From Carnobacterium sp. 17-4 (GTDB lineage Bacteria > Bacillota > Bacilli > Lactobacillales > Carnobacteriaceae): a stretch of DNA of 64,000 nucleotides. Position 1 is the stretch's first letter. Every line of letters begins with the position of its first letter. Location: contig NC_015391.1 in assembly GCF_000195575.1 (NCBI RefSeq), forward strand, positions 1,294,501 through 1,358,500. The letters run 5' to 3'. Position numbers and translations under genes: made by a program. This document shows positions 9,397 through 12,820 of the stretch, piece after piece. The notes beneath the pieces were generated by a model. The model was not told the origin of the DNA and searched no databases. It saw only the letters and a list, made by a program, of their open reading frames with translations.

Positions 9397-12300
9397 TTAA
9401 GGTGTTGCTTTTATTTGTTGTTTCATCCAATTCTCCAACTCAGAAAAATGACTGTAAACAAAAAAGTTTTCAGATTGAATTTGTTTTAGTCGTTTTTGAT
9501 AAGCTGCTGCTTGCTCTAATTCTTTTTTCTGAACGTCTGTAACGACATTCATAACACCATCTGTTATTGTAACAAATCCAATCTCTAAAAACACTGAAAT
9601 AATAAAAATTAAATTATTTTCTTTTATTTTTAAATGAGAAGCTAATAAATTCAGTTTATTACGAACATCAATATCGACATGTGTTGCCGTGTACTTAAAA
9701 ACTTGTCCAAATTGACTACGATTTGGCATTCCATTTAAATACAATTCTTCTCGGCTATAAAAACAAGCAATAATTTTTTCAGGACTAGACTGAGCTAAAA
9801 GTTCTTTGATCGAATCAATATCAGAAGGACAGTCGACAAAAATCAATTGAGTCGTTCTCATTTCAAATTGTGAAAAGGATTCAGGAGTCGTTAATGCGTG
9901 ACTATAACTCTTCTCTGATAAAAGATGAGCGTATTTTTCAACATTAAGTTGATCAAAAAAGACAAAGTCTGCTTCTTCAATTTTCCATAATGATGATGGT
10001 ATATGAGTACTTCTAGAATCAAAGACTTGTACACCTTCAATGGCTAAATCTTCTAACATTATTTGTGTTTTACGCGAACCATTCCATTCGTTGATAGCTA
10101 ATTTTCCTACTACAGAAATAGCTGAATGTAGTCCTATTTCCTCCGCAACAGGGCCAAATTGAAAACCAATCACGTCTAGAAAAGCGTTATCTTCCGCAAG
10201 TTTCATTTTTAAGTGAGCTTGATCTCCACCAATTCGGCGAACATCTTGAGACTCAACATTTTTAAAAAGAAAGGTTGGTTTAAGATTATCCGTACCAAAT
10301 GGAGCTAAACGGTTCAGTTCTTCCACTACTTCTACAGTTGCTTCTTTGATGCTCAACTGGCCGTCTATTTGTGTTTCTTCACCCAATTCTTGTGAAGCTC
10401 CATTTTCAATAGCATATTGATTGAGTTCACTTTGAATGCGGTCAATATTTTCTAAAGGAACGGTTAAACCAGCGGCCATATGATGTCCACCAAACGTAGT
10501 CGTAAATTCTCGGACATTATCCAACGCATTATACAGATGGAATGCTGGTATACTCCTACCAGAACCTTTAGCCAAACCTTTAGCTGGATCAATGTTCATG
10601 ACTAGAGCAGGTTTTCCAGTTTTGCCTACAATTTTACTAGCTACAATACCTAAGACGCCTTCATGCCAATCTTCTTTTGCTAAAACATAGACATCTGAAT
10701 CTACATCACTTTTTTCAATCATATCAAATGCTTCATTCGTTATAGTAGAAACATATGCTTGACGTTCGATATTTTTTTCTTGGACCAATTGAGCTAATGA
10801 GGCTGCTACATCATCGTCAAATGTTGTCAGCAACTCTACAGCTGGAGAAGCATCCCCTAATCTTCCAACGGCATTCAAGCGAGGTCCTATAATAAATCCA
10901 ACTGTTTCTTCATCAATTTCTTCACGCTTTATTTTTGCTAATTTAAATAAAGCGGATAAGCCGATGCGTTGGGTATTTTGTAAAACAACCAATCCTTGCA
11001 TCACTAAAGCACGATTCTCATCCGTTAACGAGACTAGGTCGGCTATCGTTCCTAACGCAACTAAATCCAATAATTCTACCGGTATTTCTCCTAATAATGC
11101 CGTTGCTAATTTGAAAGCAACGCCCACTCCAGATAGTTCTCCAAAGGGGTAAGAACCTTTCGGGTGTCTAGGGTGAATGACAGCATAAGCCGCGGGCAAA
11201 GTACTTGGCAATTCATGGTGATCCGTTACAATGACATCTATTCCTAATGCTTTCGCCCGTTCGATCGCATCATGTCCAGCAACACCATTGTCACAAGTGA
11301 CAATCAATTGTGTACCTTGTTCAATTAAGCGTTCAAAGGCTGCTACATTAGGTCCGTATCCATCTGTGAAACGATTTGGAATGTAGTAGTTGACTTCTCC
11401 ACCAATCATTTCAATTGTTTCTTTTAACACAGCTGTACTTGTGACACCATATAGTGATAGGTAACCTTTTGAACTGATCTCCAGGTTTTCCCCCACTCCA
11501 CACCGTGCGTGAGACTTTCACCTCACACGGCGTTCCATCGTTCTAGACTGTCTGAACTTAAAGTTGCTATCGCACATTAGATAAAAGGTATAAATGCTAC
11601 AAATTTATCACTAGAAAAAATTTCTTTTAACTGAAATGAAGTTATCTAATTGTTGCTGCTACTCTAGTTTATAAAGACACCCTAAATCGATTTGAGCCCC
11701 TCCCTCCACTATTTATTATCATAGCTTCACTGGTACTATGGCTCTACTTTCACTTAGGTAAATTAGCTTATTGTACTCTTACGAGATTTTCGTCTAAACT
11801 GTTTCGTTTGCTGGTAAAAGCATCCACATCCTAAGCTTCATACGTTCCAATCAAATTATCTTGTTCTATATACCCTTAGGTTTCTTCTATGGGCCGTTGC
11901 ACTTGATTATCCCTTTAAGATAATATGGTATTTCATAACGTCAGATTTTTACTCTACCACATGCAATAAGATTGGCTTAAGGCGCAATCTTAGCGCTGCA
12001 TTTCTACAGCGCCTACGTATCGACTCGTACATTCGAAAATTCGTCAGTTTCCTTTTGAGAAACATTCTAACCATAGATAATTTATAAGACCCCCAGCCTA
12101 TCAAAAGCACAATCCACCTCTGGACTTTTTTCGTGTAAGAAACTTGCCTTACTTACGGCTTTTTTCAGCTGACTTCACCGAGCTTTATACTTTGTTGGAT
12201 TTTTACCTATCCAAAAGCATATCGGAGGATTAGGGGAGTCGTTTCAAGTCGTTACTCTCTCATTCCAACTCTCATTTGATCAGTTCTCCATGTCTTAGTA

Positions 12301-12626
12301 AACTAAAGACATGTGCACAAACTTTTCACTTGTGAACGTATCGCACCTGCATCATAGTCGCCATAAATTGTTATCTGCTCTCCTTGTTCAACGGCATCTG
12401 TGATCCGAGAAACCGCACTTTCCATGCCATATATCAAATAAGGGTCATAGATCCATGATTCATCAGGCTTAATGAATCGTTCTATTTTTTCTTTAGAATC
12501 TAGGCCTCTTTGTAAACACAATTCAATAAACAAGGGAGACAAGCTTAATGCTTTACTTAGATCAGTTGCTACATCAATGTTACTGTTTTGTTCTTTTAAT
12601 TTCCATTTTGTACGTGATTTCAACAA
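9397..12626 (-). CDS. recJ: Single-strand DNA exonuclease RecJ, split by a group II intron
   Basis: RecJ is a 5'-to-3' single-strand exonuclease of the DHH family used in recombination and repair. Exon 1 runs from the TTG at 12626 to 12347 (280 nt) and ends inside the metal-binding motif ITIYGDYDA. Exon 2 runs from 11450 to 9397 (2054 nt) and begins with [15 protein letters not shown]. Joined, they are 2334 nt and exactly in frame, giving 777 residues against about 786 in Bacillus subtilis. Other motifs: [32 protein letters not shown], and [11 protein letters not shown] in the DHHA1 part. Without splicing only a short truncated exon 1 product is possible. AGGAGTGAGG precedes the start. Confidence 0.92.
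11451..12346 (-). mobile_element. Group II intron without ORF, inserted in recJ (896 nt)
   Basis: Minus-strand sequence beginning GTGCGATACG (consensus GUGYG) at 12346 and ending in CACTAT at 11451, in the same orientation as recJ. Domain V is recognisable near the 3' end (11502-11533) with the GTGAAAG-type internal loop and a CGC triad, followed by a plausible domain VI (11453-11490). Removing exactly these 896 nt restores RecJ. No reverse transcriptase or maturase frame is present; the length matches a ribozyme core alone, so splicing would need a maturase from elsewhere. A candidate EBS1, UUGCAU (11966-11961), can pair with the last six exon nucleotides AUGCAG, using one G-U pair. Confidence 0.9.
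11502..11533 (-). ncRNA. Group II intron domain V (catalytic hairpin)
   Basis: A 32-nt hairpin with a CCGTG/CACGG lower stem, an upper stem of TGAG/CTCA type and a GTGAAAGT core. This is the most conserved part of group II introns. The catalytic triad reads CGC instead of the commoner AGC. Confidence 0.85.
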
Positions 12627-12768
12627 AGTACCTCACTCCTAACTGCACCATTATATCAAAAATTATAGGTATAGATATAGTATTTCTTCCTTTTAAAACA
12701 GAACAAAATTGTTATTGAACAACCTCAGCTTAACTCAGTTATCCAATTGGTCATCAATTGAACAGCAA

Positions 12769-12798
12769 AAAAGATCGGACAAGTTGTCCCGATCTTTT
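12769..12798 (-). terminator. Terminator of degV
   Basis: Arms AAAAGATCGG-GAC and GTC-CGATCTTTT with one bulged base and a 5-nt loop, followed by T residues on the minus strand. It lies 23 bp after the degV stop codon. Confidence 0.8.
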
Positions 12799-12820
12799 AA
12801 TTGACTGATTTAACCCAGTA

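Follow-up and report, generated by a model that had tools for sequence, protein, structure and literature searches.

The recJ gene of Carnobacterium sp. 17-4 is split within an active-site codon by a group II intron that has no open reading frame (ORF) of its own. The locus lies on the minus strand of the stretch of DNA analysed here, termed the window (64,000 nucleotides (nt), positions 1,294,501 to 1,358,500 of contig NC_015391.1). On comparative evidence we consider it quite probable that the ribozyme excises itself from the recJ mRNA without a group II maturase, and that it descends from a recJ-homing retroelement that has lost its intron-encoded protein (IEP), a reverse transcriptase (RT)/maturase.

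The interrupted recJ gene and its relatives

The gene consists of the following parts:
12347..12626, minus strand: recJ exon 1, with a TTG start at 12626, ending in GDYDA and the opening base of the Asp codon that follows
11451..12346, minus strand: group II intron of 896 nt, ORF-less, GTGCG...CTAT (read from the sequence and Rfam)
9397..11450, minus strand: recJ exon 2 up to and including its stop codon, with 683 whole codons beyond the split Asp codon

Read along the minus strand, exon 1 closes with ...GACTATGATGCAG at 12347; the intron then extends from GTGCGAT, beginning at 12346, as far as CACTAT, ending at 11451, and ATGGTGTCACA at 11450 opens exon 2. With the 896 nt excised, the exons form one stop-free RecJ frame of 777 amino acids (aa) that reads GDYDADGVT across the junction (GDYDA/DG), and only then is DYDAD whole, which we take to be motif I of the DHH family. 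Exon 2 alone matches the TIGR00644 recJ profile with 514 bits (cut-off 397), and the longest sense open frame within the intron has 67 codons. An earlier note on this DNA, made from the letters alone, had placed a sense-oriented, ORF-less intron with a GTGCG start, a CACTAT end and a domain V at 11451..12346 within recJ, and had claimed that removal of exactly 896 nt restores a 777-residue protein. Its coordinates are exact to the base, the restored frame is confirmed, and the covariance models RF00029 and RF02004 match the insert on the same strand. In unspliced RNA of the home-family copies, the RecJ frame stops 5 or 14 codons inside the intron and the catalytic motif I is broken.

Below, G000 denotes the window genome, G000–G005 the genus, f1 the home family and f11 a second family of Bacilli. 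The window genome (2.69 Mb, two contigs, 99.98% complete) carries recJ at one place; an intact second copy, which the earlier note had named as evidence that would count against it, was looked for and is absent, and no second recJ was found at E 0.001 in any of the 18 home-family genomes. Carnobacterium jeotgali MS3 is the one named relative found (84% identity over exon 2).

The recJ intron is a multi-genus family at one site and not a one-off. Searching with the intron DNA gave matches in 6/6 genus genomes and 11/18 home-family genomes, those in G008, G014 and G015 being short pieces at other places, mostly of domain V. Further copies were sought with a degenerate sequence pattern that spans the junction of recJ and intron and misses recJ genes with GDYDS (as in G012) or other codons, so that the counts are lower bounds. 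This pattern is present in 8 of 395 Lactobacillales genomes (the six genus members, G010 and G017), in 5 of 398 genomes of the class, of which three are new (G508, G671 and G734, all f11), and in 20 of 261 f11 genomes, where it is spread over 7 of 19 genera; the reversed control pattern does not occur among the matches listed in the Lactobacillales and f11 searches. Altogether there are 28 copies in ten genera and two families, including two further home-family genera, all at the identical insertion base. The GDYDA-DG frame is restored in 27/27 copies whose contig reaches into exon 2, including 8/8 home-family copies (in G761 the contig end cuts exon 2 after 296 codons; the G806 contig stops short of exon 2). 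An assembly artefact, or an insertion confined to a single strain, thus has a negligible chance: 28 genomes of two families share the insertion base, and several copies lie in contigs of more than 2 million bases. Intronless recJ genes are the norm elsewhere; the empty site that the earlier note had proposed to look for in related strains is found in none of the six genus genomes, and 10 of the 18 home-family genomes read straight through it.

The intron could not be traced to a plasmid or phage. Matches were obtained in 227 plasmid and 13 phage records, all of them covering less than 80% of the query, and this source was rejected for the window intron. Among the 20 plasmid matches listed, 5' parts are 66–70% identical to the window intron, and phage records (AR9, PBS1, LPJP1, S6, PALS_2 and others) are 81–87% identical in domains V and VI (D5/D6; window 11451–11540), hinting that phages may be carriers of this intron type.

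Ribozyme architecture, exon recognition and selection on RecJ

The following elements were assigned within the intron:
12082..12288, minus strand: 5' ribozyme domain, Rfam RF02004 group-II-D1D4-5 (167 bits, gathering 34.5, E 1.2e-37)
11543..11687, minus strand: domain IV spacer, the position of the IEP ORF in relatives (145 nt in the window copy, unconserved)
11451..11535, minus strand: domains V and VI, matched by RF00029 with 62 bits (gathering 40, E 8.7e-10); D5 has a GAAA tetraloop and a 2-nt bulge, D6 a long stem
11458, minus strand: putative branch-point A in D6, 8 nt from the 3' splice site (A in 8/8 sequences, unpaired in the consensus structure)

The branch-point A of group II introns is expected 7–8 nt from the intron 3' end; D6 of the window intron holds another unpaired A at -12. 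D5 begins with ACGCC, which we read as a CGC triad, the triad types being taken from PMC12350094. Both Rfam models score above gathering in all 18 loci scanned out of 27 related ones. The boundaries GTGCG (5') and CTAT (3') are common to 27/27 delimited copies, the 5' GTGYG having been built into the search pattern and therefore met by selection, except in the genus search. Among the six genus members the domain IV spacer varies from 20 to 145 nt with a mean identity of 0.30 (0.24 when shuffled), and the flanking ribozyme parts have identities of 0.87 (5' core) and 0.92 (D5/D6).

For the eight f1 introns RNAalifold predicted 199 pairs, of which 191 D1–D3 pairs were counted after removal of 8 that touch the exons. 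In these, 96.8% of cells are standard-paired, and 56 pairs have changed on both sides. Shuffling gives 25.9 such pairs, a count of 56 being attained in 0 of 500 shuffles, and sliding the partners gives 6–12; this last comparison favours the structure, because it was derived from the sequences tested. In D5/D6 all 29 predicted pairs are standard in all eight sequences (100% of cells), and 3 pairs have two-sided changes, against 0.9 in shuffles (5/500). The window intron thus reads as a complete ribozyme under selection.

Candidate exon-binding sites (EBS) and their intron-binding partners (IBS) in exon 1 are:
11961..11966, minus strand: putative EBS1 TTGCAT, pairing with IBS1 ATGCAG
12347..12352, minus strand: IBS1, the last 6 nt of exon 1
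12021..12025, minus strand: tentative EBS2 AGTCG, which in f1 pairs better with exon -14..-10 than any other window
12356..12360, minus strand: tentative IBS2 CGACT, exon 1 -14..-10, pairing with EBS2

The EBS1 assignment is likely. Its window is the best of all alignment windows for exon -6..-1 in f1, where 96% of positions pair and 7/8 sequences pair fully. In f11 the best window for the last six exon bases lies two columns away (88%, 7 sequences fully). Inspection by eye of exon -2 finds an A facing U in 7/8 f1 copies and a G, mostly facing C, in 13/19 f11 copies; the other 6 f11 copies have A or C there, and the pair fails or differs. A gap across the EBS1 region of G885 in the intron alignment was dismissed as an artefact, as the G885 sequence contains TTGTATGTGTGGG. 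The EBS2 window pairs at 97% of positions in f1 (7/8 fully) and 93% across all 27 copies (18 fully), and its assignment is tentative.

RecJ itself is under purifying selection on both sides of the junction, in exon 2 much as in intronless relatives. We compared thirteen pairs (six from the genus, four from f11 and three intronless) by the ratio of nonsynonymous to synonymous changes (dN/dS). For exon 2 it is 0.076–0.101 in the intron-bearing genus pairs, 0.030–0.069 in f11 and 0.067–0.118 in the intronless pairs; for exon 1, with 92 codons, it is 0.087–0.192 in the genus and 0.058–0.188 in f11. In four of the five pairs involving the window, dS of exon 2 is 0.96–1.16, from which it follows that the intron is old in the genus and has persisted while roughly one synonymous change accumulated at each site.

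These results bear on the possibility that the intron no longer splices, leaving recJ either dead or expressed as two polypeptides, the exon 1 product and a 699-aa protein. Such a frame does exist: GTG at 11496, in the D5-D6 region, opens 699 aa running into exon 2, the frame upstream of exon 2 is likewise open in the 8 home-family intron-bearing genomes (705–708 aa), and two IEP-less introns evolve fast. However, the 699-aa product would lack motif I and the unspliced exon 1 product breaks it, dN/dS is low on both sides of the junction, the ribozyme pairs covary and all 27 joined frames are open. We therefore regard a dead or divided recJ as very improbable.

Loss of the intron-encoded protein and the maturase question

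The sequence stretches of all 28 copies were examined for an IEP. Ten carry an intact RT/maturase ORF of 637–639 aa in domain IV (G508, G671, G734, G769, G779, G784, G806, G919, G935 and G946); the IEP of G508, the sole one scanned with profiles, matches TIGR04416 with 347 bits and RVT_1 with 147 bits. In two copies the IEP is disrupted (by one in-frame TAA in G010; over two frames in G792), five retain only pieces (G768, G796, G819, G825 and G950) and eleven have no IEP match (G000–G005, G017, G761, G771, G783 and G885). Absence was judged from the intron length (767–896 nt) together with the lack of a TIGR04416 match inside the intron for G000–G005 and G017, and from an IEP search of each stretch for G761, G771, G783 and G885. 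Lacking an intact intron-encoded RT/maturase, the window copy does not qualify as a mobile retrohoming intron.

The IEP piece of G010 is 58% identical to the G508 IEP, which indicates that the recJ-site introns form one element family. The best intron tree (27 copies, with G806 excluded because its contig ends) calls for a minimum of 8 switches of state, an IEP that is retained (whether intact or disrupted) versus one that is lost, a soft figure because only 9 of the 24 inner branches reach the support mark. This tree joins G825 with G919/G935/G671/G734 (99/97), whereas the RecJ tree joins it with G819 (100/100), and the f11 introns resemble one another more closely than their hosts do. Together these two observations imply that the element moved between genera, and the conflict over G825 led us to reject a single vertical origin of all copies. 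The intron is absent from the sisters of G010 and G017; in the home family, one insertion and three separate homing events (in G010, in G017 and in the genus) both fit. We read the whole as a recJ-homing group II intron that has repeatedly turned into a splicing-only intron.

Two of the IEP-less copies deserve separate mention. That of G771 (L097) is the shortest (664 nt, on a branch of 0.56), yet both Rfam models still exceed their gathering scores in it and the RecJ frame is kept. The G885 copy (L106, 1033 nt) has, by eye, a nested insertion of about 300 nt near its 5' end, and this insertion matches no Rfam family at gathering.

A maturase could nevertheless be encoded elsewhere in the genome. 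The earlier note had concluded both that RecJ is made only after splicing and that splicing might depend on another intron's maturase, and had proposed a search for a related intron with an LtrA-type ORF. The former should hold, but the search came out negative: the window genome has no match to TIGR04416 or PF00078 (RVT_1) and exactly one to RF00029, and dependence on the maturase of another intron is therefore unsupported. TIGR04416 has no match in 9 of the 16 genomes without a complete IEP region (G000, G001, G002, G004, G017, G761, G771, G819 and G950, the G761 genome being only 90% complete), and in G825, G885 and G005 it has only matches below cut-off. The weakly matching RT of G005 (L012 1129-2535) is a Drt2-like defence RT (PADLOC 434 bits; NCBIfam 343 bits, below the cut-off of 390), an antiviral protein that could pass for a maturase in a general RT search.

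The history we propose begins with an ancestor of the Carnobacterium group, in which a recJ-specific homing retroelement with an RT/maturase in domain IV would have inserted into recJ; the protein gene would then have been lost. Since the intron interrupts an active-site codon of a gene under selection, we suggest that the ribozyme core and the exon-binding sites were held and domain IV was left to drift. A catalytically competent ribozyme would excise by the usual branching pathway and join ...GCAG to ATGG, giving intact RecJ, either unaided or assisted by general RNA chaperones or helicases. These lactic acid bacteria probably have to splice recJ without the lost IEP. We infer that splicing proceeds in this way, efficiently enough to supply RecJ and possibly with other helper proteins.

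Several observations weigh against maturase-free splicing of a selected ribozyme. In vivo, the group II introns of bacteria as a rule depend on an IEP or some other splicing factor (PMC3919590). Maturases above cut-off occur elsewhere in the IEP-lacking f11 genomes G768, G783 and G796, and also in the genus member G003, where they are split over two overlapping frames. The introns of G771 and G885 are on long branches, so some IEP-less copies may be decaying. Further pair types are not in excess over shuffles, neither in D1–D3 (110 versus 106.6; 96 of 500 reach it) nor in D5/D6 (7 versus 6.7; 302 of 500). With the 27 copies pooled, the EBS1 window is no longer the best (0.76 versus 0.78); in f1 another window pairs equally well with exon -5..-1, and RNAalifold puts the EBS1 bases into a helix (helix 20). 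Nor is EBS2 unique, as TGGTT elsewhere pairs at 98% with exon -13..-9, and in G017 only 4/6 EBS1-IBS1 and 4/5 EBS2-IBS2 positions are paired (by eye).

Splicing supported in trans, by a maturase from another intron or from a transient mobile element, would be the usual condition of bacterial ORF-less introns (PMC4424553), and the maturases of G003, G768, G783 and G796 would suit it. We consider it quite improbable, given the lack of matches in the window genome and in the eight others that TIGR04416 leaves empty. Split maturases such as those of G003 (L011, L013, L014 and L037) are also found, in multiple copies, in G009 (L035) and G012 (L036), thus in three genomes of two genera. They consist of an RT part of 307–349 aa and a C-terminal part of 152–181 aa, with a further stop in L014, and may possibly be IEPs expressed by frameshifting or the product of shared decay.

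Retention of the intron could also act as a regulatory switch, responding for instance to temperature or Mg2+ and setting the RecJ level, since retained RNA would give no active RecJ. The insertion does split the catalytic motif, the intron is kept in 6/6 genus members, and permafrost, sea ice and an oceanic trench have yielded Carnobacterium strains (PMC5341603), which may or may not fall in the genus group of the window. On the other hand, the patchy occurrence elsewhere resembles a homing element and not a regulator, and nothing here indicates condition-dependence; a switch seems rather unlikely.

Relation to known introns and possible significance

ORF-less introns are rare in bacteria and nearly always accompanied by related IEPs, the sole known exception being C.te.I1 (PMC4424553), an intron of Clostridium tetani that splices with no IEP in the genome (PMC3919590). 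C.te.I1 appears to be the precedent for an IEP-independent bacterial intron, and the window intron, with no IEP inside, no IEP-related gene found in the genome and, as in C.te.I1, an unrelated spacer in domain IV, would be of the same kind. The two differ in several respects. C.te.I1 belongs to an array of surface-layer genes, is spliced alternatively from a 5' splice site that is shifted, and has had its splicing demonstrated (PMC3919590, PMC4424553). The recJ intron is in a conserved single-copy repair gene with a simple in-frame junction and predicted splicing; it is distributed over several genera and has relatives at the same site with an intact IEP. Among these, the intron of G508 (L075) occupies the same recJ base, is 91% identical in D5/D6 and matches the same Rfam models, but unlike the window copy it is 2.77 kb long, encodes a 638-aa RT/maturase and is presumably still mobile. 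The C-terminal part of its IEP is HNH-like by eye, although the sole match in that part, to IscB, stays below cut-off (19 bits).

Thermosynechococcus is a thermophilic cyanobacterium with ORF-less introns. These are likewise bacterial, but a related IEP acts on them in trans (PMC4424553), and none was found in the window genome. The ORF-less introns of plant organelles are similarly vertically kept, splicing-only and located in housekeeping genes (PMC4424553); the recJ intron differs in being bacterial, a single intron, and without nuclear splicing factors. In bacteria group II introns seldom lie within housekeeping genes (PMC6003770), and phages carry both ORF-less and homing-endonuclease-bearing ones (PMC12350094). 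In the open-licence literature, judged by title and the start of the abstract, we found no report of a recJ interrupted by a group II intron, nor any paper there on a group II intron in Carnobacterium. A group II intron is also held by recA of Geobacillus kaustophilus, again a repair/recombination gene in a Firmicute, but a different one. A 2022 survey also gathered ORF-less introns (PMC8919778); its main text contains neither recJ nor Carnobacteri, and its supplements could hold these loci.

RecJ has itself been linked to group II intron mobility. Genetic assays showed RecJ mutants to be deficient in retrohoming, and in extracts they gave 37% full-length bottom-strand synthesis, but quantitative PCR registered no decrease (PMC3636086). 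A wider reading, which we put forward tentatively and with slightly more doubt than belief, is that a recJ-specialised retrohoming intron was repeatedly domesticated as in organelles: the maturase was lost, the ribozyme self-splices (in Carnobacterium at low temperature) and RecJ became permanently dependent on it. Splicing, repair and spread would then be coupled, because RecJ is a reported host factor of retrohoming and the gene that the element occupies would belong to the pathway by which it moves.

The recJ site offers a graded series at one insertion point, from intact retroelement through broken or partly deleted protein gene to bare ribozyme, in ten genera and two families. The shift from maturase-dependent to independent splicing thereby becomes directly testable, which bears on the origin of organellar and spliceosomal introns, and recJ introns may supply ribozymes active in cold cells. 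We also predict that a functional recJ is annotated as broken in genomes, and pipelines may label the 699-aa frame from GTG 11496 as a truncated RecJ. In a scan of 11400–12800, promoter-like sites showed no excess (4 versus 4.7 in shuffles), and there are three terminator-like sites (0.7 expected), all at 12769–12798, upstream of recJ and outside the intron.

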